From the NCBI RefSeq assembly GCF_009674665.1, contig NZ_WKJD01000010.1:1-64000 (forward strand): a stretch of 64,000 nucleotides of DNA. Reading direction: 5' to 3'. A program made the translations under genes and the position numbers. Every line of letters starts with the position of its first letter. Within the stretch, counting starts at the first letter, position 1. This document shows, piece after piece, positions 7,705-49,602 of the stretch. The notes under the pieces are model-generated. The model did no database searches, had not been told where the DNA came from, and was given only the letters and a program-made list of their open reading frames with translations. Origin of the DNA: Agromyces kandeliae (GTDB lineage: Bacteria > Actinomycetota > Actinomycetes > Actinomycetales > Microbacteriaceae).

Positions 7705-7716
7705 CGTTCCGGCCTT

Positions 7717-32120: not shown

Positions 32121-32233
32121 GGTGTTCCCCCTTGCCGGCGCCGGTTCGCCCGACCACGTGCCGAGCGGATCCGACGGCCGATTCCGCGCGGACGCTACCA
32201 CGGGGCGAACGAGTGCCGTTGGGACCTGAGACC

Positions 32234-32722
32234 CTAGCCGCCGAGTCGGTCCGTGATGCCGCCGGAGACGAGGGCGGGCGAGCCGAGCAGCGCGACCACG
32301 CCGACGCCGAGCAGCACGTTGACGACGACGGTGGCCCAGAACGCCCGACGGAAGCTGCGCTTGCGCGTCTTGTGCCGGAAGAGCTGCTGGGCGACGAGCG
32401 CACCGGGCCATCCGCCCGCCGCATCGACGAGGTGCAGGGTCTGCTCGGCGACCCGCGGCGCCGCGCGCCGCGCCGCTGCCTTGTCGGCGCCGTACGCCGC
32501 GACGGCGACGAGGCTCGCCGCGCCGTACCAGGCGGCGAGCCACCACGGGACGACGTCGAGGATCAGGCCGAGGGCGAGCGCGGCCGCGAACGCCGAGAGC
32601 ACGCCCCAGCTGAGCGCGGCGGGAAGCGGTCGCGAGAGATCGCGTCCCGGCTTCGCTCCTCGGCTCGATGGTCGGGTCGCGCCGCGCGGTGCGCGCCGCG
32701 AGGTCGTCGGTCCGGGTCGCAT
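32234..32722 (-). CDS. DUF1294 membrane protein
   Basis: 162-residue inner-membrane protein. A basic, disordered N-terminus of about 35 residues precedes two helices (LSWGVLSAFAAALALGLIL and AAWYGAASLVAVAAYG), the conserved DUF1294 block YGADKAAARR...RVAEQTLHLVDAAGGWPGAL, then AQQLFRHKTRKRSFRRAFW and a last helix. Some DUF1294 proteins carry an N-terminal cold-shock domain; this one does not. Function is unknown. The start ATG at 32722 lacks a strong Shine-Dalgarno sequence. It is divergent from the secreted deacetylase gene at 32945. Confidence 0.8.
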   Translation of the reverse strand: MRPGPTTSRRAPRGATRPSSRGAKPGRDLSRPLPAALSWGVLSAFAAALALGLILDVVPWWLAAWYGAASLVAVAAYGADKAAARRAAPRVAEQTLHLVDAAGGWPGALVAQQLFRHKTRKRSFRRAFWATVVVNVLLGVGVVALLGSPALVSGGITDRLGG

Positions 32723-32944
32723 GAGCTCGATCGTACGTGCGCCCCGCGTGCCGGCGGACGCCCGCGACGTCCGGTGTGGCCCGTCTTGGGGGCATCGCGA
32801 CACCCCGTGCCGGCGTAGTTTCGACCCGAGGATCCAAACCGGCATCGGCGACCCGAGCCCGCCGATCGCGGCGGTGACCTGCACGGCGAGTGCGCTCGAA
32901 CGCATCGACGCCGTGGCTCCGCCCGGGCGTGATCGGAGGCGGAC

Positions 32945-35020
32945 ATGCGAGGAGGGCTGATCGCCGCCGGCGGGGCGATCGCAGTGGCGCTCGCCATCGC
33001 CACCGTGGTGCCCGCGCCGCTCACCTCGGCCCACGTCGCCGAAGCCGCCCCGACGGATCCGCCGGTTCCACCGCATGCGGCCGCACGGGAACCGCCCCCG
33101 AGGCCGGACGATCCCCCGTCGCACCCGGGCCCCCCGGACCTGCCCAGCACCGTGCTCGAGCAGATGGTCGCGACGACCTCGACCGACCGGTCCCTGGCAG
33201 CCGGAAGCCAGCAGGCACCGGCCGGCAATCGCGTCGTCGGCTCGGTCGTCGCCGCAGGCGGGGCGGACGTCCTCCCGGAACTCGCACTCTCGACGATCGC
33301 ATCGGTGGCCGATCGCTCACCCGAACGATCCGCGGGACCGGACCGCTACCTCACGTCGGTCGCGCTCGCGCAGGACGTCCGACCGGGCGTGGGCGACGTC
33401 TGGGTCGCGACGGGCGAGGACTTCCCGGACGGCCTGGCGGCATCCGGCGTGGCCGGGGCCCGCGGCGGGCCCGTCCTGCTGACGCGGTCGACGAGACTGC
33501 CCGCGCCCGTCGCGGCGGAGTTGTCGCGCCTCGCTCCGGAGCGGGTGTGGGTCGTGGGCGGAACCCATGCCGTGTCGGAGGGCGTGCTCGACTCGATTCG
33601 CGGGGTCCTGCCGGATGCCGAGATCGCGCGTATCGCCGGTGCCGATCGCTTCGGCACGGCGGCGGCGCTGGTCCGGCAGTTCTTCGGCGGCGCCCGCGCG
33701 GTGTTCGCCGCGACCGGGGCGAACTTCCCCGACGCCCTCGCCGCCGGACCCGCCGCCGCGGTGGAGGACGCTCCGACGTTGCTCGTGACGCGGACCACCG
33801 TGCCGTCCGCGAGCGAAGACCAGTTGCGTCGGCTCCACCCGGACGTGGTCCACATCGTCGGCGGGCCGGACGTGGTGGGCGACGAGGTCGCACTGCGCAT
33901 CGCCGAGATCACCGGCGGACGTGTCGAGCGCGTTGCGGGAGACGATCGGTACGCCACCGCGGCCGCGGTCGCCGAACGGTTCTTCACGGCGACCACGTCC
34001 AGCCTGCTGCTCGCGACGGGCGCGACCTTCCCGGACAGCATCGCCGCCGGCGCGCTGGCGGGCAGTCGGCGCAGCCCGCTGCTCCTGGTCACCCCGGGCG
34101 CCGCGCCGCGAGCGACCGTCGATGCGGCCCGACGCGTGTCGTGGTGGTTGCCCGACTCGGGACGGGTGCTCCGCTATACGCTGATCGCGCACCCGGACGA
34201 CGAGTTCGCGGCGTGGTCGATCTCGGGCGTACGCGACCCCCGCAGGTACGACGTGCTGGTCGTGCTCACGACCGGCGAATCCACGCGGTTCTGCGACGGT
34301 GAGCCGGTCGACAATCCCTGGATGTCACTCCAGTACCTCCCGCAGCCGCAGCCGACCGGCGTGCCGTACTCGGACCGCTGCAAGCAGCACCGGATGGACA
34401 GTTGGCGCGAGTTCGTGCACGCCGCCGGGCTCGGACAGGTCGGCGAGGCGGAACGGCTCACGGCCGGCCCGATCACGTTCGACGGCCGCGAGGTGCCCGT
34501 CCCGCTCAGCCGCGACGAGGCCGGAACCGTGGTCGTGGCCGACGGGTTCGAGGTCGCCGTCGGATCGGACGCTGCCGTCGTGGCATTCGACATGGGCGCC
34601 CTCACGGTCGATGAGGTCCTGTGGGCCATGCAGGTCGCGCGGGGCCTCGCCGACCGGTTCCCCACCCGAGTGGAGGGCGACGTGATCGGTGCCGGCTTCT
34701 TCAACGACGGAGCGACCGGCTACGAGAACCTGCATGCGGACCATCGCGCAGTGCACGAACTGCTCGGCGGCACCGACCTCGGCATGCCCGGGAGCCAGTA
34801 CGCCACGGTCGGGCATGCCCAGTCGGCCCGGACCTTCGGTTCGTCCGTCGCCGACTACTGCGGGCACATGTGCCATCCGGCCGCCGAGCCTGCGTTCTCA
34901 ACGGGAATGGGCGGGTTCCAGTTCGCCTACGGTTGGCTCGCCGACGGCTTCTGGCCGCCGGGTGACGTCGACTCCCCGTCCGGCTTCTCGCGCTACCAGT
35001 CGTTCGCGAAGTGGTACTGA
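32945..35020 (+). CDS. Secreted cell-wall-binding (CWB2) protein with LmbE/PIG-L deacetylase domain
   Basis: 691-residue exported protein. A signal peptide (about residues 1-30) and a proline-rich linker lead to three CWB2 cell-wall-binding repeats at about 129-225, 231-322 and 330-405, each opening with AG(P/A/D)DR(Y/F)xTxxAL. The remaining 280 residues are an LmbE/PIG-L deacetylase with the zinc motif AHPDDE (H416, D418, D419) and a second motif LHADHRAV (H597, D599, H600). It could remove N-acetyl groups from cell-surface glycans while bound to the wall. GGAGG precedes the ATG. It stands alone; the substrate is unknown. Confidence 0.88.
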   Translation: MRGGLIAAGGAIAVALAIATVVPAPLTSAHVAEAAPTDPPVPPHAAAREPPPRPDDPPSHPGPPDLPSTVLEQMVATTSTDRSLAAGSQQAPAGNRVVGSVVAAGGADVLPELALSTIASVADRSPERSAGPDRYLTSVALAQDVRPGVGDVWVATGEDFPDGLAASGVAGARGGPVLLTRSTRLPAPVAAELSRLAPERVWVVGGTHAVSEGVLDSIRGVLPDAEIARIAGADRFGTAAALVRQFFGGARAVFAATGANFPDALAAGPAAAVEDAPTLLVTRTTVPSASEDQLRRLHPDVVHIVGGPDVVGDEVALRIAEITGGRVERVAGDDRYATAAAVAERFFTATTSSLLLATGATFPDSIAAGALAGSRRSPLLLVTPGAAPRATVDAARRVSWWLPDSGRVLRYTLIAHPDDEFAAWSISGVRDPRRYDVLVVLTTGESTRFCDGEPVDNPWMSLQYLPQPQPTGVPYSDRCKQHRMDSWREFVHAAGLGQVGEAERLTAGPITFDGREVPVPLSRDEAGTVVVADGFEVAVGSDAAVVAFDMGALTVDEVLWAMQVARGLADRFPTRVEGDVIGAGFFNDGATGYENLHADHRAVHELLGGTDLGMPGSQYATVGHAQSARTFGSSVADYCGHMCHPAAEPAFSTGMGGFQFAYGWLADGFWPPGDVDSPSGFSRYQSFAKWY

Positions 35021-35083: not shown

Positions 35084-36103
35084 CTACTGGTTCGAGAAGG
35101 CGGCGTCGAACGACGCGGTCGGGCGCGGCCAGATGAGCGAGCGCACGTACTCGAGCGCCTGCGGGCCGCCGTGCAGGCGGTCCATGCCGGCGTCCTCCCA
35201 CTCGACCGAGATCGGGCCCGTGTAGCCGATCGCGTCGAGCGCGCGGAACGCGTCCTCCCACGGCACGTCGCCATGCCCGGTCGAGACGAAGTCCCAGCCG
35301 CGCCGCGGGTCGCCCCAGGGCAGGTGCGAGCCGAGGATGCCGGAGCGGCTGTTCGCCGTCCGGATCCGGGTGTCCTTGCAGTCGACGTGGTAGATCCGGT
35401 CCTGGAAGTCCCAGATGAAGCCGACCGGGTCGACGCCCTGCCACATCATGTGGCTCGGGTCCCAGTTGAAGCCGAACGCCGGGCGGCGGTCGATCGCCTC
35501 GAGCGTGCGCACGCTCGTCCAGTGGTCGTACGCGATCTCGGAGGGGTGCACCTCGTGCGCGAAGCGCACGCCCTCGTCGTCGAACACGTCGAGGATCGGG
35601 TTCCACCGGTTCGCGAAGTCCTCGTAGCCCGCGTCGATCACGTCGGCGGGCACGGGCGGGAACATCGCCACGTACTGCCAGATCTTCGAGCCCGTGAAGC
35701 CGACGACCGTGTCGACGCCGAGCTTGCGCGCGACCCGCGCGGTGCGCTTGAGGTCCTCCGCGGCCCGCTGCCGCACCCCCTCGGGGTCGCCGTCGCCCCA
35801 CGTGTAGGGGCGCACGATCGCCTGGTGGCGGAAGTCGATCGGGTCGTCGCACACCGCCTGGCCGGTCAGGTGGTTCGAGATCGCGTAGACCTCGAGGCCG
35901 TAGCGCTTGAGGAGCTCCTGCTTCTCCTTCAGGTAGCCGGGCTCCTCGTCGGCGAGCTTCGTGTCGAGGTGGTCGCCGCCGATGCCGATCTCGAGGCCGT
36001 CGTAGCCCCACTCGGAGGCCAGGCGAGCGACCTCCTCGAACGGCAGGTCGGCCCACTGCCCGGTGAACAGGGTGACGGGGTGGGTGGCGGGAGTGTCGGT
36101 CAT
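35084..36103 (-). CDS. Sugar phosphate isomerase/epimerase (xylose isomerase-like TIM barrel)
   Basis: 339-residue TIM-barrel protein of AP endonuclease family 2. It begins VTLFTGQWADLPFEEVARLA and contains GYDGLEIGIGGDHLD, likely metal ligands in the HEVHPSEI, NWDPSHMMW and YHVDCKDT blocks, and SVEWEDAGMDR near the end. These Glu/His/Asp ligands are typical of divalent-metal sugar isomerases. It starts 28 bases after eboF and is the last gene of the minus-strand ebo operon, though family members also accompany Gfo/Idh oxidoreductases such as the one at 44373. The substrate is unknown. An AGAGGA lies upstream of the ATG. Confidence 0.88.
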   Translation of the reverse strand: MTDTPATHPVTLFTGQWADLPFEEVARLASEWGYDGLEIGIGGDHLDTKLADEEPGYLKEKQELLKRYGLEVYAISNHLTGQAVCDDPIDFRHQAIVRPYTWGDGDPEGVRQRAAEDLKRTARVARKLGVDTVVGFTGSKIWQYVAMFPPVPADVIDAGYEDFANRWNPILDVFDDEGVRFAHEVHPSEIAYDHWTSVRTLEAIDRRPAFGFNWDPSHMMWQGVDPVGFIWDFQDRIYHVDCKDTRIRTANSRSGILGSHLPWGDPRRGWDFVSTGHGDVPWEDAFRALDAIGYTGPISVEWEDAGMDRLHGGPQALEYVRSLIWPRPTASFDAAFSNQ

Positions 36104-36131
36104 GCTCGGATCCTCTCTCGGGGTTCGGTGG

Positions 36132-37568
36132 TCATCTGGGCGCGACACGGTCGTGCCCGGCGGGCTGCGGCATCCGCTCGCCCAGTAGTCCCTGGTGGCG
36201 GAGCACGAGGTCGCGGACCGCGGTCGCGTGGACGCGGTCGCCGGCGCCGTCGAGGAAGGCCGGGTCGGAGCTCAGCAGCAGGGGGGTGTCGGCCGCCGAG
36301 TCGGGCAGCCGGCCGTGCGTGCCGAGCACGCACGACGGGTCGAGCGGCACCGTGCTCATCGCGTAGCGCAGCCCGAGCGCCTTCCGCGCGAGGTTGCCCG
36401 CCGCCTTGGCCTTCGCGAGGCGGTCGGCGGGGTCGAAGAACAGCTCGGCCGGGTCGTAGCCGGGCTTGCGGTGGATGTCGACGCCGCGCGCGTACTCGGG
36501 CGCGGCGGCGTCGTCGAGCCAGAAGTAGTAGGTGAACCATGCGCCCGGCGCGGCGACCGCGACGAGCTCGCCCGACCGGGCGTGGTCGAGTCCGTACCGG
36601 GCCTGCGCTGCGCGGTCGAGGACCTCGTCGACGCCGTCGAGGCCCTCGAGGATCGCGGCCACGCGCGGCACGTCGGCGGGGTCGGAGACGTAGACGTGCG
36701 CGACCTGGTGGTCGGCGACGGCGAACGCGCGGGAGGTCCACGGATCGAGCTGCTCGCGGCCGTCCTGTACGTACACCTCGAGCAGTCCCTCGCGGCGGAG
36801 TGCGCGGTTGACGTCGACCGGGCGATCGGCGGCGGCGATGCCGTACTCGGCGAGCGCGACGACGGTGACGCCCTGCGCGTCGGCCTGGTCGAGCAGCGGG
36901 GCCATCGCCCGGTCGAGGTCGGCGGCGGCTCGGGTCGCCTCGGGGGCGTGGGGGCCGTGTCGTTGCAGGTCGTAGTCGAGGTGCGGCAGGTACGCCATGG
37001 TCAGCTCGGGCGCATCGGGCCGATCGAGGACCCGTCGGGTGGCGTCCACGATCCACCGCGTCGAGCGGATGCTCGCGGTCGGTCCCCAGTACTGGAAGAG
37101 GGGGAACTCGCCGAGCGCGTCGCGCAGCTCGTCGTGCAGGGCGGGCGGGCGGGCGTAGAAGTCGGGCGACTTGCGGCCGTCGGCGTGGTAGATCGGGCGG
37201 GGCGTGACGGTGAGGTCGGTGCTCGCGCCCATGGCGTACCACCAGCCCAGGTTCGCGCTGGTGTACGCGCCCCCGGTCCGATGCCGGGCGGTCTCCCAGA
37301 GCTTCTCGCCGGCGACGAGACGGTTGTGCTGCCGCCACAGCAGCACGTCGCCGAGCTCGCGGAAGTACCATCCGTTGCCGACGACGCCGTGCCCGGACGG
37401 CATCCGCCCGGTCAGCACGGACGACTGCACCGAGCAGGTCACGGCGGGCAGCACCGTGCCGAGCTCGGCACGCGAACCGGCGGACGCCATCCGCGACAGG
37501 CGCGGCATGGACCGCAACGCGTCGGCGGTCAGCCCGACCACGTCGAGCAGCAGCACCTTCGCGGTCAT
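36132..37568 (-). CDS. eboF: Nucleotide pyrophosphatase/phosphodiesterase-family protein (EboF-like)
   Basis: 478-residue member of the alkaline phosphatase superfamily (type I phosphodiesterase/nucleotide pyrophosphatase). The N-terminus LLLDVVGLTADALRSMPRLS supplies the first metal Asp, LPAVTCSVQSSVLTG the Thr/Ser nucleophile, AYLPHLDYDLQRHG and the VADHQVAHVYV region further metal ligands. In the ebo clusters described in cyanobacteria and other bacteria a protein of this family is EboF. It overlaps eboE by 4 bases (ATGA), so it is translationally coupled. No signal peptide is visible, so it looks cytosolic. Its substrate may be a nucleotide-linked or phosphate-ester intermediate. Confidence 0.8.
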   Translation of the reverse strand: MTAKVLLLDVVGLTADALRSMPRLSRMASAGSRAELGTVLPAVTCSVQSSVLTGRMPSGHGVVGNGWYFRELGDVLLWRQHNRLVAGEKLWETARHRTGGAYTSANLGWWYAMGASTDLTVTPRPIYHADGRKSPDFYARPPALHDELRDALGEFPLFQYWGPTASIRSTRWIVDATRRVLDRPDAPELTMAYLPHLDYDLQRHGPHAPEATRAAADLDRAMAPLLDQADAQGVTVVALAEYGIAAADRPVDVNRALRREGLLEVYVQDGREQLDPWTSRAFAVADHQVAHVYVSDPADVPRVAAILEGLDGVDEVLDRAAQARYGLDHARSGELVAVAAPGAWFTYYFWLDDAAAPEYARGVDIHRKPGYDPAELFFDPADRLAKAKAAGNLARKALGLRYAMSTVPLDPSCVLGTHGRLPDSAADTPLLLSSDPAFLDGAGDRVHATAVRDLVLRHQGLLGERMPQPAGHDRVAPR

Positions 37569-38701
37569 GCCGGCTGCCCCTGCCGCTCGGCCAGGCGGGC
37601 CGACGCCCACCGCAGCTCGCCGGCGATGCCGTCCACCAGGTCGAGCGGATGCTCGGCATCGACGCCCGGGAGCACCGACCACGTGTACGTCTCGACGTCG
37701 ACGTGGAGCTGGTCCACCGGCTGCACTGCGACGACCGCGTCGAGAGCGGCCTCGAGCACCTCGGTGGTCGCCCGCAGCGGCGGCTCCGGCTCGACGTGCA
37801 GCGGCACGTGGAAGTGCACCCGCCACGGCGCCGACGCGGGCAGCACCTCCAGCGCCTCGGGGAGGTCGTCGACGCGGATCGGACCGTTCGCCGCCCGCTC
37901 GCGCACCTGGTGAAGGTAGCGGTCCTCGGCGTACCCGGCGACCGCGGCGCGTGCGGCCGGGGCGCCCGGCCGATCCACGTGCAGCGCCGCGGACGCCTGC
38001 ACCTTCACGACCCGGATGCCCGCCGACGCGATCCGCTCCACCTCGGTGCGCGGGTCGGCGAACGAGACCGCGAGGTGGCACGTGTCCAGGCAGATCCCGA
38101 CGTGCTCGAGGTCGATCCGCTGGCGGTGCGCGTCCAGCCACGCGACCGTGTCGGCCACGTCGTCGAGCACGCAGCCCGGCTCCGGCTCGATGGCGAGGCG
38201 GATGACGCGTCCGGTCTCCGCACGGATGGCGCGGAGCTCGGCGCCGAGCGACACCAGGGCGGCCGTGGCTGCGCGGTCGGCCGCGGCATCCCACCCCTCG
38301 CGCCACCCCAGCGGCAGCGTGGAGATGCTGCCCTCGCCGCCCGGGGGCAGCAGTTCGGCGAGCACTCGCGCCGCGTCGATCGTGTAGTCCAGGCGGGCCG
38401 GATCCGTCCAGTCGGGTGAGTAGACCCCGAGCTTCACGACGTCGGCGTGGAACGCCTCGTACGGGAAGGCGTTCAGGGTGCGCACCTCCAGCCCCTCCTC
38501 CTCGAGCGCGGCGCGCAGGCGGGCCAGCGCGGCGGTCTCGTTCGCGAGCCGCGCCGCGAGCGGGGCGGGCAGCCACAGGCCGACCCCGAGGAGGTCGAGG
38601 CCGGCGGCGCGGCGGATCGGACCCGCCGCGGCGTGCAGCTGCGCGATCACCCCGTCGAGGTCCTCGGCCGGGTGCACGTTGGTGCAGTAGGAGAGGTGCA
38701 T
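37565..38701 (-). CDS. eboE: Metabolite traffic protein EboE (TIM barrel)
   Basis: 378-residue xylose-isomerase-like TIM barrel beginning MHLSYCTNVHPAEDLDGVIA, the characteristic start of EboE proteins. Likely metal ligands are in LAIEPEPGCVLD, HVGICLDTCHLAV and HFHVPLHVEPEPPL. The SPDWTDPARLDYT block is also typical. In Nostoc the ebo cluster is needed to move a scytonemin precursor to the periplasm; the enzymatic role of EboE is unknown. It starts 2 bases after the TatD-like gene (TGAGGATG) and overlaps eboF, within a run of eight same-strand genes. Confidence 0.85.
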   Translation of the reverse strand: MHLSYCTNVHPAEDLDGVIAQLHAAAGPIRRAAGLDLLGVGLWLPAPLAARLANETAALARLRAALEEEGLEVRTLNAFPYEAFHADVVKLGVYSPDWTDPARLDYTIDAARVLAELLPPGGEGSISTLPLGWREGWDAAADRAATAALVSLGAELRAIRAETGRVIRLAIEPEPGCVLDDVADTVAWLDAHRQRIDLEHVGICLDTCHLAVSFADPRTEVERIASAGIRVVKVQASAALHVDRPGAPAARAAVAGYAEDRYLHQVRERAANGPIRVDDLPEALEVLPASAPWRVHFHVPLHVEPEPPLRATTEVLEAALDAVVAVQPVDQLHVDVETYTWSVLPGVDAEHPLDLVDGIAGELRWASARLAERQGQPA

Positions 38702-38703
38702 CC

Positions 38704-39597
38704 TCAGTCCGCCCCCGCCCCGGCGGGCACCGCGGCGGCACCGCGCAGGATCGAGTTGCCCTCGAAGAGCTCGGCCTCCCCGCCGAGCTCGAATCCGGGC
38801 AGGGGGGTCACGTCGAGCCGGCCGCTCTGCCCGTAGAACGCGACCGGATTGCCCCAGAGCACGGTGTCGACCTCGGCGTCGGTGAACCCCGCGTCGAGCA
38901 TGGCCCGACCCGTCTTCGCCGTGAGCAACGGGTCGGAGCGACCCCAGTCCGCGGCGGAGTTCACGAGCATCCGCTCGGTTCCGAGCCGCTGGAGGATCGC
39001 GACCATGCGACCCGGGTCCATCTTGGTGTCGGGGTAGATCGAGAAGCCCATCCAGCAGCCGCGCTCGGCGACCAGGTCGACCGTGACCTCGTTCAGGTGG
39101 TCGAGCACGACGAGCTCGGGGGCGATGCCCGAGTTCGCGACCACGTCGAGGGTGCGCTGCGTGCCGTGCTTCTTGTCGCGGTGCGGCGTGTGCACGACGA
39201 CGGGCAGGGCGTGGCGTATCGCGAGGTCGAGGTGCGCCTCGAGGACCTCGTCCTCCTCGGGCGTCATCGAGTCGTAGCCGGTCTCGCCGACCGCCACGAC
39301 CGACTCGCGCCGGAGGTACCGGTCGAGTTCCGGCATGACCTCGCGGCAGCGCGGGTCGTTCGCCTCCTTCGGGTTCAGTGCGATGGCCGCGTGGTGGCGG
39401 ATGCCGAACTGCGACGCGCGGAACCGCTCCCACCCCGTGATCGCATCGAAGTAGTCGAGGTAGCTCGAGACGCCCGTGCGCGGCTGGCCGAGCCAGAACG
39501 CCGGTTCGACGACCGCGCGCACGCCCGCGGCGTACATCGCCTCGTAGTCGTCGGTCGTCCTGGAGGTCATGTGGATGTGCGGGTCGAAGATGCGCAT
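38704..39597 (-). CDS. eboB: TatD-family metal-dependent hydrolase (EboB-like)
   Basis: 297-residue amidohydrolase-fold protein. Metal-ligand motifs are visible in order: DPHIHM at the N-terminus, GETGYD, VVHTPHRDKK, VVLDHLNE and NSAADWGRSDP. TatD members are metal-dependent nucleases or hydrolases, but the ebo-linked branch (EboB) is thought to act on a small metabolite. It lies between eboA and eboE with gaps of 1-2 bases, so it is certainly cotranscribed. The extended Ala/Gly-rich C-terminus (RGAAAVPAGAGAD) is probably disordered. Cytosolic; no signal peptide. Confidence 0.82.
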   Translation of the reverse strand: MRIFDPHIHMTSRTTDDYEAMYAAGVRAVVEPAFWLGQPRTGVSSYLDYFDAITGWERFRASQFGIRHHAAIALNPKEANDPRCREVMPELDRYLRRESVVAVGETGYDSMTPEEDEVLEAHLDLAIRHALPVVVHTPHRDKKHGTQRTLDVVANSGIAPELVVLDHLNEVTVDLVAERGCWMGFSIYPDTKMDPGRMVAILQRLGTERMLVNSAADWGRSDPLLTAKTGRAMLDAGFTDAEVDTVLWGNPVAFYGQSGRLDVTPLPGFELGGEAELFEGNSILRGAAAVPAGAGAD

Positions 39598-39598
39598 G

Positions 39599-40123
39599 TC
39601 AGCGTCCTGTCTCGAGGGATGCGTCGGCGGCCGCAGGGAGCAGCGCGCGGAGGTCGTCGGGGATGGCGCGACCGGCGGCCCCGCGTTCCTCCGCGAGGTC
39701 CGCGGCCATGCGGGCCAGCTCGTCGTCGGCCCGCTCGTCGAGCCGGGCGACGCCGGCGAGCGGCACCCCCATGAACACGAGCTTCACGACCCCGTGCCGC
39801 CAGTCGTGGTCGCCGAGGTGCCGACCGGCGAACGGGCCCATCGCGGCCGCGACGAGTCGCGGGTCGTTCGATCGGAGCGCGTCGCGCACCAGTTCGACGC
39901 CGACCGCGCGCACGAGGTCGGGTGCGGGCTGCTCCGCCACGATCCGGTCGAGCACGCCGAGCACGAGGATCCGCTCGTCGGTGTCGCCGCTCCGGTAGCG
40001 CGTCTCGAGCTCGTCGGCGACGACGATCGCCGGGGCGCCGGCCCGCGACAGCGTCGCCCCCGCACCCCCGCGCATCCCGGGCGCTCCGGCGCGGGGTCCC
40101 ATCGATTCGTCCATGCGGTTCAC
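39599..40123 (-). CDS. eboA: EboA domain-containing protein
   Basis: 174-residue protein, recognised as the actinobacterial EboA type by DERILVLGVLDRIVA, LVRDALRSNDPRLVAAAMGPFA and WRHGVVKLVFMGVPLAGVARLDERAD. EboA is a small all-helical protein of unknown activity that defines the cluster. The GTG at 40123 is chosen because GGAGG lies 7 bases upstream and GTGA overlaps the stop of the TIM-barrel gene before it; ATG at 40114 is an alternative. It sits in the middle of the operon, immediately before eboB. The N-terminal 20 residues are Gly/Ala-rich and poorly conserved-looking. Confidence 0.78.
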   Translation of the reverse strand: MNRMDESMGPRAGAPGMRGGAGATLSRAGAPAIVVADELETRYRSGDTDERILVLGVLDRIVAEQPAPDLVRAVGVELVRDALRSNDPRLVAAAMGPFAGRHLGDHDWRHGVVKLVFMGVPLAGVARLDERADDELARMAADLAEERGAAGRAIPDDLRALLPAAADASLETGR

Positions 40124-40986
40124 CCGATCCCCTCCATGACCTCGATCAGCCGTGCCATGCTCTCGCGCGCCAGGCGCGGCGCCGCGTGCGAGTGGCGCGG
40201 CAGCTCGACGGCGGCGACCCCGCCGTACCCGAGCTCGGCGAGCGTGCGGAACGCGAGCTCGAGGTCGAGCGCTCCCGTTCCGAGTTCGAGGTGCTCGTGC
40301 GCGTGCGGCAGCATGTCGTCGACCTGCACGTTCACGAGCAGGTCGCCCGCGGCGCGGAGCGCGGCTTCGACCCCGCCGGGCTCGACCACCACGCAGTGGC
40401 CGAGGTCGACCGTGATGCCGAACTCCGGCGGATCGCCGAGCTCGGCCCGCAGCCGCAGCGCGTCGGCGACGGTCTCGACGAGCATGCCCGGCTCGGGCTC
40501 GAAGCCGAGCCGCACGCCGTGGTCCCGGGCTGCGACGACGAGCCGGGACATCCGCTCGACGAGCCGACGCCAGGCGCCCGCCGGGCCGACGCCGTCGGGC
40601 AGCACGCCCGACCAGAGCGAGACGCAGTCGGCGCCGAGGACCTCGGCGATCTCGATCGCGCGCACGAGGAAGGCCACGCGCTGCTCGGCCTCGACGTCGT
40701 CGTCGAGCAGGTTCGGGCGGTGCTTGCGGAAGGGGTCGAGCACGTAGCGCCCGCCGGTCTCGACGACCACCCGGAGGCCGCGCTCCCGGAGGTCGTCGCG
40801 GAGGAGCCGCGCGTCGTCGCGCCATCCGGCCGCGAACGGGTCGAGATGCGGATGCCCCAGGGTCAGCGCGACCGCGCCGTACCCGGTGCGCTGCACCACG
40901 TCGAGCGCCGCGCCGAGCGGGTGGTCGGCGAGCCCGTTCGTTCCGTAGCCCAGCACGGGCCGGACGAGCGTCGTGGACCCGGTCAC
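40120..40986 (-). CDS. Sugar phosphate isomerase/epimerase-like TIM barrel in the ebo operon
   Basis: 288-residue xylose-isomerase-like TIM barrel, distinct from EboE and from the gene at 35084. Likely metal ligands are in LGFEPEPGMLVETV, GITVDLGHCVVVEP, NVQVDDMLPHAHEH and AVELPRHSH. It begins with GTG overlapping the eboC stop (GTGA) and its own stop overlaps the eboA start. This double coupling marks it as a core member of the local operon even though it is not among the classical eboA-F set. Activity and substrate are unknown; isomerisation or epimerisation of a cyclitol or sugar is the natural guess. Confidence 0.85.
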   Translation of the reverse strand: MTGSTTLVRPVLGYGTNGLADHPLGAALDVVQRTGYGAVALTLGHPHLDPFAAGWRDDARLLRDDLRERGLRVVVETGGRYVLDPFRKHRPNLLDDDVEAEQRVAFLVRAIEIAEVLGADCVSLWSGVLPDGVGPAGAWRRLVERMSRLVVAARDHGVRLGFEPEPGMLVETVADALRLRAELGDPPEFGITVDLGHCVVVEPGGVEAALRAAGDLLVNVQVDDMLPHAHEHLELGTGALDLELAFRTLAELGYGGVAAVELPRHSHAAPRLARESMARLIEVMEGIG

Positions 40987-41849
40987 GTGATCTCACGCCC
41001 CTTCGCGCCGCGCCGCGCGAGCAGGATGCCGAGCGCGTCGACCGCCAGGAGCACGACCGCGTCGATCGGGCGACCGGCGCGGGCCGTGAGCGCCGCCTGC
41101 AGCGGCACCATCGCGAGGATCCCCCGGCGCGTGGCGTCGCGGACGACGGGACCGGTCGGCGTGCCCACGGCGCCGGCCTGTACACGGAGGGTCGGGAGCG
41201 CGAACCGGGCGGCCGCGACCCACGACACGACGCCCGCGGCATCCGCCCTCGGCCGGACGGCGGCGGCGGCGGACCCGGCGGTGACGACCGCGGCGGCCGC
41301 CGCCACCGCGGCACTCGTGCCGTGCACCTCGCCGCGCGCGAGCGCCGTGACGCTCGCGGTGTGCCCGGCCATCACGAGCGCGGGGCGCGCGGCGACGCGA
41401 GCGCCGTCGGAGCCCGCGCCGAGCAGCACGTCGAGCCCGCGGCAGGCGCCCATGACGAACGGGCCGAGCACGTTCCGCTTGGCCGAGACATCGTACGCCC
41501 AGATGGAGCCGGCGAGCGGGAGGGCGACGGCGAGCGAGGACCGGCCGCCGGTGAGACCGGCGACGGCGATCCCCGCCGCGGTCAGCGCGCCGGCCGTGGC
41601 GAGGGCCGCGCGCCGCGTCACCCGGCCGGAGGGGATGGGCCGCTCGGGGCGCTCGACGCGGTCGAGTTCCGCGTCGGCCGCGTCGTTCAGCGCCATCCCG
41701 CCCCAGTAGAGCAGCACCGAGGCGACGGGCAGTCCGAGACGGGGAAGGATGCCGCGACGCCCGGTCGCGGCCATGCCCGCGGTCGCGTCGCCGAGCACCG
41801 TCAGGCCGGCGGGCGCGCGGACCAGCTGCAGGAACGCGGGTGCGTCCAC
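40983..41849 (-). CDS. eboC: UbiA-family prenyltransferase (EboC-like)
   Basis: 288-residue integral membrane protein with about eight helices. The first Asp-rich prenyl-diphosphate motif is complete: NDAADAELD (N55, D56, D59, D63) followed by RVERPERPIPSG. The second motif is reduced to YDVSAKRN, lacking the usual DxxD spacing, as is common in the EboC branch. It should transfer a prenyl group to a cytosolic acceptor at the membrane. GTG at 41849 begins one base after the cyclase stop codon. A prenyl donor could come from the diphosphate synthase encoded at 43165. Confidence 0.85.
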   Translation of the reverse strand: MDAPAFLQLVRAPAGLTVLGDATAGMAATGRRGILPRLGLPVASVLLYWGGMALNDAADAELDRVERPERPIPSGRVTRRAALATAGALTAAGIAVAGLTGGRSSLAVALPLAGSIWAYDVSAKRNVLGPFVMGACRGLDVLLGAGSDGARVAARPALVMAGHTASVTALARGEVHGTSAAVAAAAAVVTAGSAAAAVRPRADAAGVVSWVAAARFALPTLRVQAGAVGTPTGPVVRDATRRGILAMVPLQAALTARAGRPIDAVVLLAVDALGILLARRGAKGREIT

Positions 41850-41850
41850 G

Positions 41851-43032
41851 TCACGCCACCTGCGCCGCGGACCTCCGGACCGCCGTCCGGAGCGCCCACG
41901 AGACCAGCTCGTCGGCCTGACGGGCGAACGCGTGCTCGTCGCTCCCCCACGGGTCCTTGAAGAAGTAGCCGAGCTCGGCGACCGGGCCGGTGACGCCGGC
42001 GCCGTCGGCGAGCGAGAGCAGTCGCGCGAGGTCGATCACGAGCGGCGCGGCGAGCGTCGAGTCGTAGGCGCTCCAGGTGGTCTGCAGCGTGATCCGGGTG
42101 TCGAGGAAGCCCTCGGCGTGCACGTGGTCCCACGCCGTCTTCAGGTCGCCGAGGTCGGGGACGTTGTCGATGTGCAGCGGGGTCACGACGTCGTCGCCGA
42201 GCAGGTCGTTCAGTCCGCGGTTCTTCGAGACGAGCTTCGACTGCACCGCGGCGGGGTCGGCGAGCGTCGCGCCGTCGCCGCCGCCGAGGAGGTTGGCACC
42301 GGCCCAGGAGAGCACGCGCATGCCGCGCGACGCGAACATGGGCGCGAGCACCGTGCGGAGCAGCGTCTCACCGGTCTTGCCGTCCTGGCCGGCGATCGGC
42401 ACGCCGGAGTCCGCCGCGAGGTCGCGGAGCGCCGGGATGCCGAGCGAGAGGGACGGCGTGAAGCACGCGTAGGGCGCGCCGGCGCCGGCGACGGCGGCGA
42501 TCGCCGAGAGCGTGCTCGAGGGTAGCGACTCGGAGGCAGGGTCGTCGAGCGCCGCGTCGAGCGCGGCGCGGTCGTGGAACTCGGGTCGGTCGGCGGGGAG
42601 CGGTTCGGTCGAGGCGACGTCGATGACCACGACCCGGGCGAGGCCGTGGCGTTCCCGGAAGTCGCGGATGTCGGCGGCGCGGAGCTCGATCTCCTCGCGC
42701 TGGGTGCCGCGCGGGGTGCGGGCGAGCAGGCGGATGTCGGCATCGATGGCGTCGAGCCGGGCGCCGACGGCGTCGACGATCCGCGCGGGCAGCATTCCGC
42801 CCGCGGCGAGCGAGCGTGCGCGCTCGACGAGCGGGGTGTCGTCGACGTCGTGGCCTCCGACCACCAGGTCGCCGAACGCCGTGAGCGCGACGCCGTCGAA
42901 CTCGGGCCCCGCGGTCGTCAGCCCCACCGGTGCCACGATCCCGTCTGCGAGGGCGGCGAGGCCCACGGTCGCGGTGGTCGCCACGCTCCCTCGAGCGCCC
43001 ACGAACCAGATCCCGGTCCGTCCTTCGTTCAT
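41851..43032 (-). CDS. Inositol-3-phosphate synthase-family sugar-phosphate cyclase
   Basis: 393-residue member of the myo-inositol-1-phosphate synthase family. NAD-binding GARGSVATT (residues 12-20) follows the first beta strand; the catalytic block GQDGKTGETLLRTVLAPMF is intact, as are SWAGANLLGGGDG, SKNRGLNDLLGDD and HVHAEGFLDTRITLQTTWSAYDS. MIPS converts glucose 6-phosphate to inositol 3-phosphate. The gene heads the ebo operon and probably makes or modifies a cyclitol for it; in the classical cluster this position is filled by EboD, a dehydroquinate-synthase-like cyclase. GGAG precedes the ATG. Housekeeping inositol synthesis is less likely given the context. Confidence 0.87.
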   Translation of the reverse strand: MNEGRTGIWFVGARGSVATTATVGLAALADGIVAPVGLTTAGPEFDGVALTAFGDLVVGGHDVDDTPLVERARSLAAGGMLPARIVDAVGARLDAIDADIRLLARTPRGTQREEIELRAADIRDFRERHGLARVVVIDVASTEPLPADRPEFHDRAALDAALDDPASESLPSSTLSAIAAVAGAGAPYACFTPSLSLGIPALRDLAADSGVPIAGQDGKTGETLLRTVLAPMFASRGMRVLSWAGANLLGGGDGATLADPAAVQSKLVSKNRGLNDLLGDDVVTPLHIDNVPDLGDLKTAWDHVHAEGFLDTRITLQTTWSAYDSTLAAPLVIDLARLLSLADGAGVTGPVAELGYFFKDPWGSDEHAFARQADELVSWALRTAVRRSAAQVA

Positions 43033-43164: not shown

Positions 43165-44325
43165 TCAGGCCGAGCGGCCGGGCACGCTCCGGGCGAGCAC
43201 CCCGAGGTACGCCTCGAGCTCCCCGGGAAGCCCGGCGCCGTCGAGCGCCGCCACCGCATCGGCCGCCCGACGGACGATGCAGGCGCGATGCCGTTCGAGC
43301 GCGCCGCTGTCGCGCATGACGGTGCGGACCCGCTCGACGCCCGCGTCGGACAGGTCCGCCCGACCGACGTCGCGGTCGAGGCTCGCCCGCTGCTGCTCCG
43401 ACGAGCCGGCGTACGCGAGCTGGAGCAGGAACGTGCGCTTGCCCGACCGGATGTCGGAACTCGTCGACTTGCCGGTCCGCTCCGGGTCGCCGAACACCGC
43501 GAGCTCGTCGTCCATGAACTGGTACGCGACCCCGAGGTGCCGACCGAACTCCTCGAGCGCGGCGAGCGCCGAGGCATCCGCTCGCCCGGACGCCAGGGCG
43601 CCGAGACGGAGCGGCAGGGCGACGCTGTAGCCGGAGGTCTTGAGCTCCGCCGTGCGGGCGGGACGAGCCGCTTCGGGCGAGAGCCCCTCCCCGCGGACGT
43701 CCATGAGCTCGCCCGAGACCGCCCGCCCGAGGGCGGTCACGACCTCGAGCACGAGCGAGACCCGGATCCCGTCCTGCACCGGAACGCGGGCGAGGACTCC
43801 GATGCACTCCCCGATCGCGAGGTCGCCGGCGAGGACGGCGGCCGACGCCGCCCGGTGCTCGGCCGTCGATGCCGCGCCGATCGATCGCAGCGTCTCGCGC
43901 GTGACGCCGAACAGGTTCGGGCGACCGTGACGGCGGTCGTCGCCATCGATCAGGTCGTCGTGGACGCAGAGCCCGAGGTGCAGCAGCTGGACTGCCGCGG
44001 ACAGCCCGTCGCAGGCCTTCGCGTCCGCGCCGCCCATGCCGAGGTAGGCCGCAGCGGCCAGCCTCGAACGGACGTACTTCCCCCCGCGCTGCGCGGCGAG
44101 CCCGTCGATGAGTTCCAGCAGCTCCGGCTGGTCGTCGGCGGATGCGGCGAGGGCGGCCCAGACGGTCGCCGTCGCGGCCGGCGCACGCGCGACGGCCGTC
44201 TCGACGCGACCGGCGAGCCCGGCCGCACCGTGCTCGGCCTCGTGCGCTCCACCGATCGCCCCATCGACCCCCTCGGCTCGCCGACCGGCCCGTTCGCCGA
44301 GCCGCACGGATCCGGTGGACGACAT
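43165..44325 (-). CDS. Trans-isoprenyl diphosphate synthase (polyprenyl synthetase)
   Basis: 386-residue all-helical enzyme of the farnesyl/geranylgeranyl diphosphate synthase family. GGKYVRSRL (K83) binds isopentenyl diphosphate, the first Asp-rich motif is DDLID (D123, D124, D127) followed by RRHGRP, and the second is DDELAVFGD (D272, D273). The N-terminal ~40 residues are extra. It elongates allylic diphosphates in the cytosol; product length cannot be read safely. GAAGG precedes ATG at 44325. It is on the same strand and 132 bases upstream of the ebo operon, so it may supply the prenyl donor for the UbiA-type enzyme. Confidence 0.9.
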   Translation of the reverse strand: MSSTGSVRLGERAGRRAEGVDGAIGGAHEAEHGAAGLAGRVETAVARAPAATATVWAALAASADDQPELLELIDGLAAQRGGKYVRSRLAAAAYLGMGGADAKACDGLSAAVQLLHLGLCVHDDLIDGDDRRHGRPNLFGVTRETLRSIGAASTAEHRAASAAVLAGDLAIGECIGVLARVPVQDGIRVSLVLEVVTALGRAVSGELMDVRGEGLSPEAARPARTAELKTSGYSVALPLRLGALASGRADASALAALEEFGRHLGVAYQFMDDELAVFGDPERTGKSTSSDIRSGKRTFLLQLAYAGSSEQQRASLDRDVGRADLSDAGVERVRTVMRDSGALERHRACIVRRAADAVAALDGAGLPGELEAYLGVLARSVPGRSA

Positions 44326-44372: not shown

Positions 44373-45572
44373 TCAGCCGGCCACCGGGGCCGGCTCGGCG
44401 ACCCCCACCCACGCGCCCGTGGATGCGGCGCTCTCCTCGACCGCGTCGAGCACCCGCTGCACGTGGAGGCCGTCCGCGAAGGACGGACTCGGGTCGGCGC
44501 CCGTGGCGATCGCCTCGACGAAGTCCCTCGCCTGGTTCGCGAAGCCGTGCTCGTAGCCGAGGAGGTGGCCTGCCGGCCACCATGCCGAGACCCACGGGTG
44601 CTCGGGCTCGGTGACGATGATCGACGTGAATCCCTGCTCGCTCGCAGGCGACGTCGCGTCGTAGTACTCGATGCGGTTGAGGTGCTCGAGGTCGAATGCG
44701 ATCGCGCCACGCGATCCCGACACCTCCACGCGCAGGGCGTTCTTGCGGCCGGTCGCCATGCGCGATGCCTCGAACGAACCCAGCGCGCCCGACGCGAAGC
44801 GCCCGTGGAAGAACGCGACGTCGTCGACGGTGACCTCCCCGACGCCGGTGGCGGAGGCGGTCGAGCCGCCCGAGATGCCTCCGGACGAGGAGCCGGCGAT
44901 CGGCCGCTGTCGGACGAAGGTCTCGAGCAGCCCCGACACCTCGGCGACCCGGACCCCGGTGAGGTACTCGGCCATGTCGACCGCGTGCGCACCGATGTCA
45001 CCGAGCGCACCCGATCCGGCCCGGTCCTTCTGCAACCGCCAGGTCATGGGCGACGCAGGATCGACGAGCCAGTCCTGCAGGTACGAGGCGCGCACGTGAC
45101 GGATCTCGCCGATGCGCCCCTCGGCGATGAGGTGCCGCGCGAAGGCGGTCGCCGGGAGGCGCCGGTAGGTGAACCCCACCATCGAACGGATGCCGCGCGC
45201 CGCAGCGGCCTCGGCCGCCCGGGTCATCGCCTCGGCCTCGGCCGACGAATTCGCGAGCGGCTTCTCGCAGAGCACGTGCTTGCCCGCCTCGAGGGCGGCG
45301 ATGGCGATCTCCGCGTGGCTGTCTCCCGGGGTGACGATGTCGACGACGTCGACGTCATCCCGCGTGACGACGTCGCGCCAGTCCGATGCGGACTCGCGCC
45401 AGCCCCACTTCTCGGCGGAGGCGGCGGCCCGATCCGGATCTCGGCCGACGAGGACGTCCATCGTCGGCTCGACCGTGAGGTCGAAGAACCTCGGGGCGAC
45501 GCGCCATCCCTGCGAGTGGGCGGCCCCCATGAAACCGTTGCCCACCATCGCGACGCGGAGTCGTTCACGCAT
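44373..45572 (-). CDS. Gfo/Idh/MocA-family oxidoreductase
   Basis: 399-residue NAD(P)-dependent dehydrogenase. The Rossmann motif VAMVGNGFMGAAHSQGW opens the protein, EKPLANSSAEAE carries the conserved EKP lysine, and GALGDIGAHAVDMAEY contains the Asp/His catalytic pair. The C-terminal domain forms the substrate site. Inositol and sugar dehydrogenases of the IolG type are the nearest relatives. It lies 72 bases downstream of the sugar-binding lipoprotein gene on the same strand, after a hairpin, and is likely cotranscribed, so it should oxidise the imported sugar or cyclitol. A Gly/Ser-rich loop (AGSSSGGISGGSTASATG) is an unusual insertion. Confidence 0.9.
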   Translation of the reverse strand: MRERLRVAMVGNGFMGAAHSQGWRVAPRFFDLTVEPTMDVLVGRDPDRAAASAEKWGWRESASDWRDVVTRDDVDVVDIVTPGDSHAEIAIAALEAGKHVLCEKPLANSSAEAEAMTRAAEAAAARGIRSMVGFTYRRLPATAFARHLIAEGRIGEIRHVRASYLQDWLVDPASPMTWRLQKDRAGSGALGDIGAHAVDMAEYLTGVRVAEVSGLLETFVRQRPIAGSSSGGISGGSTASATGVGEVTVDDVAFFHGRFASGALGSFEASRMATGRKNALRVEVSGSRGAIAFDLEHLNRIEYYDATSPASEQGFTSIIVTEPEHPWVSAWWPAGHLLGYEHGFANQARDFVEAIATGADPSPSFADGLHVQRVLDAVEESAASTGAWVGVAEPAPVAG

Positions 45573-45644: not shown

Positions 45645-46691
45645 TCAGGACTCGAACGCGAACTGGATGTAGTCGTCCACGTTGTCCGAGGTCACGACCG
45701 GTGCGTCGAGCACGATCCGGTTGGCGACGCTCGGCGTGTACAGGTCGCTCATCGTCTTGCCCTGCGCGATCAGGCGGGCCAGCGCGATGCCGTCGGCCGC
45801 CTGCGTCGACGGGTAGATGACCGTCGCCTCGAGCACCGAGTCGCCCGACTGGATGGCGCGCATCGCGTTCGCGCTGCCCGCACCGCCGACCATGAAGAAC
45901 TCGTCGCGCCCGGCGGCGTCGATGGCCGCGAGGACGCCGACGCCCTGGTCGTCGTCGTGGTTCCAGATCGCGTCGATCTCCGGCGCGGCCGAGAGCAGCT
46001 GCGAGGTCACGGCCTCGCCGCCCTGGATGGTGAAGTCCGCGGCGACGCGGTTGGTCACCTCGAGACCGCAGTCGGACAGGGCGTCGGCGAAGCCCGCCGA
46101 GCGGTCCTGGGTCAGCGGCAGCGAGTCGATGCCGGCGATCTCGGCGATGACCGCGTCGTCCTGCCCTTCGAGCCGTTCGCAGATGTACGTGCCGGCGCTG
46201 ACGCCCATGCCGTAGTTGTCGCCCAGGATCGTCGCACGTGCGGCGAAGGGGCTCGAGAACTCGCGGTCGACGTTGATGACCGGGATGCCGGCCTCCATCG
46301 CCGCGGTCGCCGCCTCGGTGAGCGCGGCGCCGTCGGTGGGCAGCAGCACGATCGCGTCGACGCCGTCGTTGACGAACGTCTCGACCTGGCTGATCTGGAG
46401 GTTGGCGTCGTTCGTCCCCTCCGCGACGCGGAGCTCGACGTCGGGGTAGCTGTCGGCGGCGGCGATGGCCGCCGAGTTGATCGCTCCGAGCCAGCCGTGG
46501 TCGGCCGCGGGGCCCGAGAAGCCGATGACGACCGTGTCGCCGGCCTCGGCGTTCTCCTCGGCGGAGTTCTGGTTCTCCGTGATGTTCGACTCGGATCCGC
46601 CCGCCGTGCAGCCGGCCAGCAGGCCGGCGACCGCGAGGGATGCGCCCGCCATGACCAGCATGCGGGCTCGTGAAGTGCGGGTGACACTCAT
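45645..46691 (-). CDS. Ribose/inositol-type ABC transporter substrate-binding lipoprotein
   Basis: 348-residue periplasmic-binding protein of the RbsB/IbpA class anchored as a lipoprotein (lipobox LLAGC before TAGGSES). The mature part starts with DTVVIGFSGPAADHGWLGAI and has VETFVNDGVDAIVLLPTDG and IPVINVDREFSSP, the usual ribose-type layout; the C-terminal lobe ends in DDYIQFAFES. The ligand is probably a sugar or cyclitol. GGAGAGG is upstream of the ATG. The matching ATPase and permease genes are divergent at 46952 and 48469, an atypical split arrangement. The downstream oxidoreductase suggests catabolism of the imported compound. Confidence 0.92.
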   Translation of the reverse strand: MSVTRTSRARMLVMAGASLAVAGLLAGCTAGGSESNITENQNSAEENAEAGDTVVIGFSGPAADHGWLGAINSAAIAAADSYPDVELRVAEGTNDANLQISQVETFVNDGVDAIVLLPTDGAALTEAATAAMEAGIPVINVDREFSSPFAARATILGDNYGMGVSAGTYICERLEGQDDAVIAEIAGIDSLPLTQDRSAGFADALSDCGLEVTNRVAADFTIQGGEAVTSQLLSAAPEIDAIWNHDDDQGVGVLAAIDAAGRDEFFMVGGAGSANAMRAIQSGDSVLEATVIYPSTQAADGIALARLIAQGKTMSDLYTPSVANRIVLDAPVVTSDNVDDYIQFAFES

Positions 46692-46822
46692 TCGTGTAGT
46701 CCTCTCCTTGGATGTGACGCAGCACCGCCAGATGGACCTCGTATCCATCCGGGTGCCACCACACCCAACGGAGTCCACGCTGACGTTTCGTGAGCGTAGC
46801 AGAAGGTAGCCGTATCTGCGCA

Positions 46823-46848
46823 ACTTATGTTTGTGTCGCGTTATAAGT
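46823..46848. promoter_or_regulatory. Inverted repeat in the divergent promoter region
   Basis: ACTTAT (46823-46828) and ATAAGT (46843-46848) are inverted around 14 bases in an AT-rich patch between the binding-protein and ATPase genes. It is a candidate site for the ROK regulator encoded at 49603. The rest of the 260-base gap shows no gene. Confidence 0.4.
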
Positions 46849-46917
46849 GGCCAGCCACTCATCCCGACGCCCGGCCGCGCGCGTCGGAGGATTCTCGACC
46901 GGATTCGGCGAAACCAC

Positions 46918-46945
46918 TTGCGACATCGCGAGTTCCGGTTATGAT
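46918..46945 (+). promoter_or_regulatory. Promoter giving a leaderless ATPase transcript
   Basis: TTGCGA (46918-46923) is followed after 16 bases by TATGAT (46940-46945). The expected start point, 7 bases beyond the -10 box, falls exactly on the G of the GTG start codon at 46952, and there is no Shine-Dalgarno sequence in front of it. Confidence 0.6.
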
Positions 46946-46951
46946 TTTCGA

Positions 46952-49521: not shown

Positions 49522-49602
49522 CCGCGCCCACGCGGCGCCGGGCGTATTCCGGTGGATGCATGTGCATGCGAGTTATGTCGAAGAGTATGGGAGAATCGAC
49601 GG

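Follow-up and report, generated by a model that had tools for sequence, protein, structure and literature searches.

The ebo operon, eboA-F, known from algae and cyanobacteria, where it serves to make a membrane-linked molecule, was named in 2016 (Open Biol 2016, PMC5133447), and a section of a later study (mBio 2018, PMC6282210) gives genetic results from Nostoc in which export of a metabolite to the periplasm depends on it. A second point of reference is Streptomyces coelicolor, where, according to a passage in PMC3610822, the putative transferase SCO3242 adjoins the myo-inositol phosphate synthase SCO3243 in the CDA region; NCBIfam names after SCO3242 the family of the prenyltransferase described below. 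Here we describe a locus of Agromyces kandeliae (assembly GCF_009674665.1). The stretch analysed, hereafter the window, comprises 64,000 nucleotides (positions 1 to 64,000 of contig NZ_WKJD01000010.1), and its minus strand carries, at 36132-43032, a seven-gene ebo-like operon encoding a cyclase of the inositol-phosphate-synthase family (MIPS), an EboC-type prenyltransferase, an isomerase-like protein (iso1), EboA, EboB, EboE and EboF. This is a real and conserved variant of the ebo pathway in which the cyclase EboD has been exchanged, and it is widespread among the actinobacteria sampled.

Results

Gene content of the operon

A reading of the window from its letters alone (hereafter the sequence-only reading) had proposed eight same-strand genes with gaps or overlaps of one to four bases. 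Open reading frames are present at all eight positions on the minus strand. From upstream to downstream the genes of that strand read Gfo/Idh, polyprenyl synthetase, MIPS, EboC, iso1, EboA, EboB, EboE, EboF and iso2, and the spacings from MIPS through iso2 are +1, -4, -4, +1, +2, -4 and -17 bases; the proposed range holds for the first six, the EboF/iso2 overlap being 17 bases.

The operon opens with MIPS (41851..43032), an archaeal-type protein with the NAD_binding_5 and Inos-1-P_synth families (PF07994, 151.1 bits; PF01658, 103.9 bits; both above cut-off) in the slot of the ebo cyclase. There follow an EboC-type UbiA prenyltransferase of the SCO3242 family (40983..41849; NF045897, 300.5 bits, cut-off 260); iso1, a xylose-isomerase-like TIM barrel whose place between EboC and EboA is typical of the MIPS form (40120..40986; PF01261, 139.8 bits); EboA (39599..40123; NF035938, 131.6 bits, cut-off 50); the TatD-like metallo-hydrolase EboB (38704..39597; PF01026, 52.5 bits, above cut-off); the TIM barrel EboE (37565..38701; NF035939, 426.4 bits, cut-off 250); and EboF, an alkaline-phosphatase superfamily member in which metal-site residues are altered (36132..37568; PF01663, 202.9 bits, above cut-off). 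All seven lie on the minus strand. The EboA and EboE identities had been proposed by the sequence-only reading, which named the lack of an EboA or an EboE match in advance as grounds for giving it up; the scores bear both out. Its expectation that these families are placed non-randomly is likewise sustained, as the ebo families share one order among relatives.

The eighth gene, iso2, is a second xylose-isomerase-like TIM barrel (35084..36148, minus strand; PF01261, 145 bits). We rejected it as a member of the operon, since a match at E ≤ 1e-20 occurs in 33 of the 37 genomes of the window genus, including 22 of the 26 that lack the cluster, and we assign it to a sugar-oxidation set outside the ebo core.

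MIPS and EboD across loci

We assigned types to 120 loci from tblastn searches with MIPS, EboD and the remaining Ebo proteins as queries. These are not a random sample: 25 were picked on EboE/EboC matches, 15 came from among 51 EboB-matching plasmid records, and the remainder were the best 80 of 586 confirmed stretches from an EboB scan. Forty loci carried MIPS (37 actinobacterial, 3 haloarchaeal), 59 carried EboD and 21 neither, and both cyclases together were found in none of the 120. Among the named loci of the EboB scan (best 80 of 586), nine of 11 actinobacterial loci had MIPS and none had EboD; the 69 others, which include one locus of unstated phylum (L148), had EboD in 52 cases and MIPS in none.

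The order MIPS-C-iso1-A-B-E-F was present in 32 of the 37 actinobacterial MIPS loci and, with one extra iso1-like match, in two more. The three deviating loci hold MIPS and EboC at a contig end (L061), give no iso1 match (L091) or give no EboC or EboF match (L137). EboD loci are arranged A-B-C-D-E-F in 31 of 59 cases and D-C-A-B-E-F in seven. As MIPS comes first in the actinobacterial arrangement and EboD comes first in D-C-A-B-E-F, MIPS occupies the place that EboD has in that order.

Profile scans of the cluster proteins found no EboD in the window cluster. An EboD encoded elsewhere in the genome was considered and rejected, as no EboD-like protein exceeded the NF004852 cut-off (checked on one EboD, that of Azospirillum, at 571 bits) in any of 23 ebo-positive actinobacterial genomes; the A. 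kandeliae genome has one PF01761 match, with an NF004852 score of 174.6 of 333 bits. The claim that EboD is missing and its slot taken by an unrelated cyclase family is thus supported by position, by mutual exclusion across the 120 loci and by the 23 genomes. The MIPS form is what the sampled Actinomycetota usually have, and it is no peculiarity of the A. kandeliae genome.

With regard to distribution, the SCO3242 model exceeded its cut-off in 12 of 60 relative genomes including the window's, 11 of the 12 falling within its own genus (n = 37). For EboE, a sample of 296 genomes across the phylum gave 14 with a match, 13 of them over cut-off, the window genome being included in the count. In a Streptomyces-like genus (g25), taken to be Streptomyces since plasmids named as Streptomyces bear the same cluster, the SCO3242 model was over cut-off in 78 of 121 genomes. 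MIPS is next to the prenyltransferase gene in 28 of 30 loci; in the other two, L183 and L207, the locus is at a contig end. A MIPS-type ebo-like cluster also occurs on three haloarchaeal plasmids, from Halobaculum, Halocatena and Natronococcus (L072, L073, L079; three records were read, and a fourth that was listed, from Haladaptatus, was left out). Their genes encode an EboB-like TatD protein, an EboC-like UbiA protein, two isomerases, MIPS and an EboF-like protein, and tblastn found no EboA on the three plasmids. Identities between Halobaculum and the window are 44% for EboB, 44% for MIPS and 39% for EboF; the Halobaculum UbiA protein scores 177.7 bits with the EboC model and 169.9 bits with the SCO3242 model, both below cut-off.

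The ebo MIPS as a separate enzyme

The solved structure closest to the ebo MIPS is 1u1i (E 1.2e-62), which we take to be the Archaeoglobus fulgidus myo-inositol-1-phosphate synthase, with 1gr0, presumably Mycobacterium tuberculosis INO1, at 5.1e-12. The five-membered-cyclitol-phosphate synthase 6k96 is a MIPS-family relative, but its match (E 3.5e-07) is far weaker than that of 1u1i. Three residues, K270, K359 and N247, align to positions that differ in the A. fulgidus entries 3qvw, 3qvx and 3qw2; the residues changed in those entries are kept in the ebo MIPS, a protein of the same family, and are at least 97% conserved over 41 rows. The sequence-only reading had held that a cyclitol is made and prenylated, and these active-site residues fit that claim; the pathway itself we infer from sequence.

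Against TIGR03450, the INO1 model, the window MIPS reaches about 40 of 638 bits, below cut-off, and it is the only MIPS-family gene that PF07994 and TIGR03450 find in its genome. None of the 37 genus genomes has an INO1 over cut-off; weak matches occur in 11, at the position of the ebo MIPS, and these are the same 11 in which the prenyltransferase is over cut-off. The other 26 give no TIGR03450 match at E ≤ 0.001, so the ebo MIPS answers no general need in the genus. Outside the genus, INO1 (660-738 bits) and the ebo MIPS coexist in six ebo-positive genomes.

In a tree of 61 rows, INO1 is parted from all others, the ebo MIPS included, by a branch with support 100/100 and a length above 5. INO1 entered the tree as nine rows of 16 loci (10 offered, L219 dropped), and 10 of 13 other PF07994 loci were used (L167-L169 dropped). 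On the strength of the coexistence in six genomes and the split in the tree, we rejected a displaced housekeeping INO1; by sequence comparison the ebo MIPS is distinct from that enzyme. Actinobacterial ebo MIPS rows require two label changes on the best tree and may have one origin. Given these label changes and the long branch of the A. fulgidus row, a transfer between archaea and actinobacteria may have run either way.

The other Ebo proteins

The identification of the UbiA protein as EboC stands in so far as the SCO3242-family model is over its cut-off; the EboC equivalog model NF035940 gives 157.4 bits, short of its cut-off of 250, and the EboC of Azospirillum likewise falls short (89.1 bits). 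Residues N55, D56, D59 and D63 are at least 90% conserved over 91 rows (the conservation counts for MIPS, EboC and EboF exclude rows with stops or short matches). After SCO3242 and EboC, the models matched are PRK12884 and PRK12882. The latter is an archaeal geranylgeranylglycerol-phosphate geranylgeranyltransferase family, and this relationship suggests a bond to a polyol phosphate as the best precedent for EboC.

EboA scores 46 of 320 bits against the narrower NF035937 family. Its structure model, built from 46 rows (the window, 44 of 77 listed, and L144), is all-helical with a predicted local distance difference test score (pLDDT) of 89.1, and no solved structure matched it at E ≤ 0.001. 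EboB falls in the ebo-type TatD-like group and shares 58% identity with the Azospirillum EboB, which adjoins an annotated eboE; the 17 rows compared with the Azospirillum protein span 41 to 68% identity, in a set that excludes L038 (stop codon in the stretch).

EboF is 55% identical to its Azospirillum counterpart. Its model, built from 48 rows (the window and 47 of 57 listed), has a pLDDT of 90.8 and a nucleotide-pyrophosphatase-like fold, the best solved match being 7n1s (E 1.9e-20). In an alignment with phosphonoacetate hydrolase, T44 falls on the residue changed in 3t02, and Q202, E241 and Y242 face His, Asp and His, positions at which members of the superfamily, we assume, bind metal. Across 91 other rows of both cyclase forms, T44 and Y242 are invariant, and E241 and Q202 are each kept in 89. 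By its sequence, EboF of either form may be something other than a standard two-metal hydrolase.

Neighbouring genes

Upstream of MIPS, with 132 bases between them, ends a gene for a polyprenyl synthetase resembling geranylgeranyl-diphosphate synthases (43165..44325, minus strand, start codon provisional; PF00348, 121.8 bits), a possible supplier of the prenyl donor. The sequence-only reading overlooked this gene, which belongs to the picture; it adjoins MIPS in all 11 genus clusters (the window and 10 fetched). Beyond it lies a Gfo/Idh/MocA oxidoreductase of the sugar-oxidation set (44373..45572, minus strand; PF22725, 112.3 bits), which scores 373.4 bits against the levoglucosan dehydrogenase model NF052479 (cut-off 650). 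The context further comprises a sugar importer, with a substrate-binding protein (45645..46862, minus strand; PF13407, 133.9 bits), an ATPase (46847-48472, plus strand; PF00005) and a permease (48469-49521, plus strand; PF02653), and a ROK regulator (49552-50841, plus strand; PF00480). On the other side, a long protein with three cell-wall-binding (CWB2) stretches adjoins the operon at 32945-35020, and a DUF1254/DUF1214 protein lies at 30717-32837. The reading frame at 50897-51622 matches a YqaJ-like viral recombinase domain.

For the sugar-oxidation neighbourhood in g25 we picked 12 loci by hand on long contigs out of 30 listed (L229-L240). The flanks of all 12 match Gfo/Idh, iso2, GSDH, ThuA and 3-keto-disaccharide hydrolase, and the same five families were found in none of 12 control regions taken near the mirrored positions on these chromosomes. 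With a threshold of 100 bits, one or more of the five are seen in 23 of the 37 actinobacterial MIPS loci beyond these 12 (five of the 37, L039-L043, are also from g25), in nine of 59 EboD loci, two of 21 cyclase-free loci, none of three haloarchaeal loci and none of the 12 controls, the stretches differing in length. A Nonomuraea locus (L078) has none of the five. Within the window genus, Gfo and iso2 are in the stretch in six of 10 fetched clusters and absent in the other four.

GSDH-type neighbours occur in 12 of 12 g25 loci, 16 of 37 other actinobacterial MIPS loci, six of 59 EboD loci, one of 21 cyclase-free loci and none of 12 controls. Some EboD loci of Bacteroidota share a ThuA or GSDH neighbour (L111, L122, L125, L147), so the neighbour link is not tied to MIPS. 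In the g25 GSDH protein that was read, PKD and CBM6 domains are present and a leader peptide was recognised by eye; the copy in the window genome is 45% identical to this protein. Long GSDH proteins, a mixed class of about 880 to 2058 amino acids that was sorted by hand, after the matches had been seen, by open frame and profile range, are present in all 11 cluster-bearing genus genomes vs seven of 26 cluster-free ones (Fisher p 3.7e-5, uncorrected for kinship). In three of the 11 genomes these proteins are encoded within 16-18 kb of the cluster, and in eight, including the window genome, they are encoded elsewhere.

On a Streptomyces camelliae plasmid (L069), a ScyD/ScyE family gene (7096-8298) stands directly before MIPS, and a multicopper oxidase and an aromatic prenyltransferase are encoded downstream of the cluster.

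Discussion

Proposed pathway

We read the window operon as the MIPS form of the ebo pathway, making a prenylated inositol or inositol-phosphate lipid for extracytoplasmic processing, a product and role for which we see the chances as evenly divided. MIPS, by its family and residues, would convert glucose 6-phosphate to an inositol phosphate, which iso1, EboE and EboB, to go by their folds, might modify or epimerise. EboC, given its motif, would join a prenyl chain to a hydroxyl of the cyclitol phosphate, and in the window genus this chain may come from the adjoining polyprenyl synthetase. EboA, with its predicted helical fold, could serve as a small scaffold, and EboF, of phosphodiesterase-type fold with altered metal-site residues, might do something other than ordinary two-metal hydrolysis. 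The membrane lipid would then assist in moving or oxidising a small molecule beyond the cytoplasm, this being the scytonemin monomer in cyanobacteria, as published, and perhaps, in view of the neighbouring genes, a sugar or glycoside in actinobacteria. One kind of lipid would obtain its ring by either of two routes, through EboD or through MIPS.

Several observations weigh against this reading. Ubi-297, the only tested relative of EboC, prefers to farnesylate quinoline derivatives, not a cyclitol, according to a passage in PMC9235831. In four actinobacterial ebo loci (L038, L050, L102, L152) the fetched stretch contains no MIPS. Sugar-oxidation neighbours are absent from the fetched stretch of 14 of the 37 other actinobacterial MIPS loci, among them all three Streptomyces plasmid loci (L069-L071), which have none of the five families, and the window itself has no GSDH or ThuA gene. 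The 12 g25 loci, furthermore, all come from one genus, and shared ancestry alone can keep an order.

In L050, EboE is split across two pieces. Lentzea flava (L102, 816-10001) has an ebo cluster with a polyprenyl synthetase upstream, and the gene for an importer's sugar-binding protein ends six bases before EboC; as seen in the fetched stretch alone, it is as if an imported compound replaced one that is made. In the same cluster iso1 and EboA form a single reading frame, and hybrid proteins of the iso1-EboA type in Actinobacteria are mentioned in passing in a section of PMC5133447. L038 (7661-13708) is a second, cyclase-free ebo cluster of its genome (G184), with FAD-dependent-oxidoreductase-like and inositol-monophosphatase-like genes (named by eye) close by, and Streptomyces caeruleatus (L152) resembles this arrangement. 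Two clusters from gammaproteobacterial metagenome-assembled genomes (L093, 7297-13464; L094, 270-7174) have iso1 followed by EboC-A-B-E-F and neither cyclase in the fetched stretch.

Alternative explanations

The prenylated inositol lipid has to be weighed against other accounts of the locus. One holds that the cluster only exports a secondary metabolite of a neighbouring biosynthetic cluster, as proposed for Nostoc. A passage in PMC3610822 counts SCO3242 and SCO3243 within the S. coelicolor CDA cluster, two of three annotated Streptomyces plasmid loci adjoin type II polyketide synthase or nonribosomal peptide synthetase genes, and the third adjoins a multicopper oxidase and an aromatic prenyltransferase. 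Secondary-metabolite clusters as general neighbours fit these plasmid loci, but not the 12 chromosomal g25 loci with their recurring sugar-oxidation neighbours, and were rejected; the window cluster is adjoined by a sugar importer and an oxidoreductase, and neither a polyketide synthase nor a nonribosomal peptide synthetase was found among 20 scanned window proteins. We regard export alone as possible, if rather unlikely. In another account, which we find doubtful, the ebo product would export nothing and would instead be a cyclitol-headed lipid acting as cofactor or electron carrier, outside the cytoplasm, for secreted beta-propeller oxidases. The oxidases in question would be ScyE for cyanobacteria and, for actinobacteria and some Bacteroidota, proteins of the GSDH type. 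Part of PMC6282210 reports that deletion of ScyE accumulates the same monomer as ebo deletions, and the GSDH-type neighbours and the distribution of long GSDH proteins in the window genus, as given above, speak in favour of this account. The same paper, however, describes Nostoc imaging in which the monomer was outside the cytoplasm only with intact ebo genes, and neither the window nor the three Streptomyces plasmid loci have a GSDH neighbour. If true, this account would have two unrelated cyclases, EboD and the inositol synthase of actinobacteria and haloarchaea, feeding one lipid function in two domains.

The whole locus might instead be catabolic, with MIPS and iso1 helping to break down a glycoside that contains inositol or glucose, and with EboC and EboA in accessory roles. 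Characterised MIPS enzymes are, as far as is known, anabolic, which counts against this, as do the 14 of 37 other actinobacterial MIPS loci without such neighbours in the fetched stretch and the persistence of iso2 in 22 of 26 cluster-free genus genomes. We hold a catabolic locus to be improbable, even though Gfo/Idh, iso2, the 3-keto-disaccharide hydrolase and the importer resemble oxidation-elimination-hydration pathways described in sections of PMC7676230 and PMC10628242. Finally, MIPS could be an ordinary supply of inositol, for phosphatidylinositol or mycothiol, that came to lie in the cluster by chance. Its being the sole MIPS-family gene found in the window genome would suit such a role; set against it are the six ebo-positive genomes outside the genus that also have INO1, the 26 of 37 genus genomes that do without any TIGR03450 match at the threshold used, the well-supported long branch between INO1 and the ebo MIPS, and the first place in the order that MIPS holds across the phylum. 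Taken together, these make an ordinary inositol supply very hard to credit.

Relation to known systems

Within the searched literature, the MIPS form appears to be undescribed. We found no papers pairing 'inositol-3-phosphate synthase' with an ebo term or with SCO3242 in a search whose scope left most subscription papers outside, and the main texts of PMC5133447, PMC6282210 and PMC9235831 contain no words starting with 'inositol'; a figure in PMC9235831 shows Saccharomonospora clusters. As the NCBI annotation of Streptomyces records names the genes singly, it is the pattern, and not its individual parts, that is new.

Several consequences may follow. MIPS belongs to a well-understood family and provides a concrete guess for the ring, an inositol phosphate, while the MIPS form provides a tractable host in laboratory Streptomyces. 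The sugar-oxidation neighbours are a new clue to ebo function. The split of EboD and MIPS between lineages suggests that conservation applies to a prenyl-linked cyclitol head and not to one exact ring. If the haloarchaeal clusters belong to this pathway, the system extends over two domains.

Of the systems to which the locus may be compared, the levoglucosan and O-glycoside pathways (as set out in parts of PMC7676230 and PMC10628242) combine a dehydrogenase, a beta-eliminase or hydratase annotated as a sugar-phosphate isomerase, and a Gfo/Idh/MocA reductase. Comparable genes occur near the cluster, but as its neighbours and not as its members. The likeness to eboA-F is closer: EboA, EboB, EboE, EboF and an EboC-like prenyltransferase are shared, clustered and co-directional (PMC5133447, PMC6282210). 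The window operon differs in having MIPS and no EboD, one more TIM barrel, placed after EboC and before EboA, and a prenyltransferase recognised by the SCO3242 model and not by the EboC model. With EboD absent and the EboC score below its cut-off, the cluster falls short of full membership under the six-gene definition in the literature, but very likely it works as the ebo operon does.

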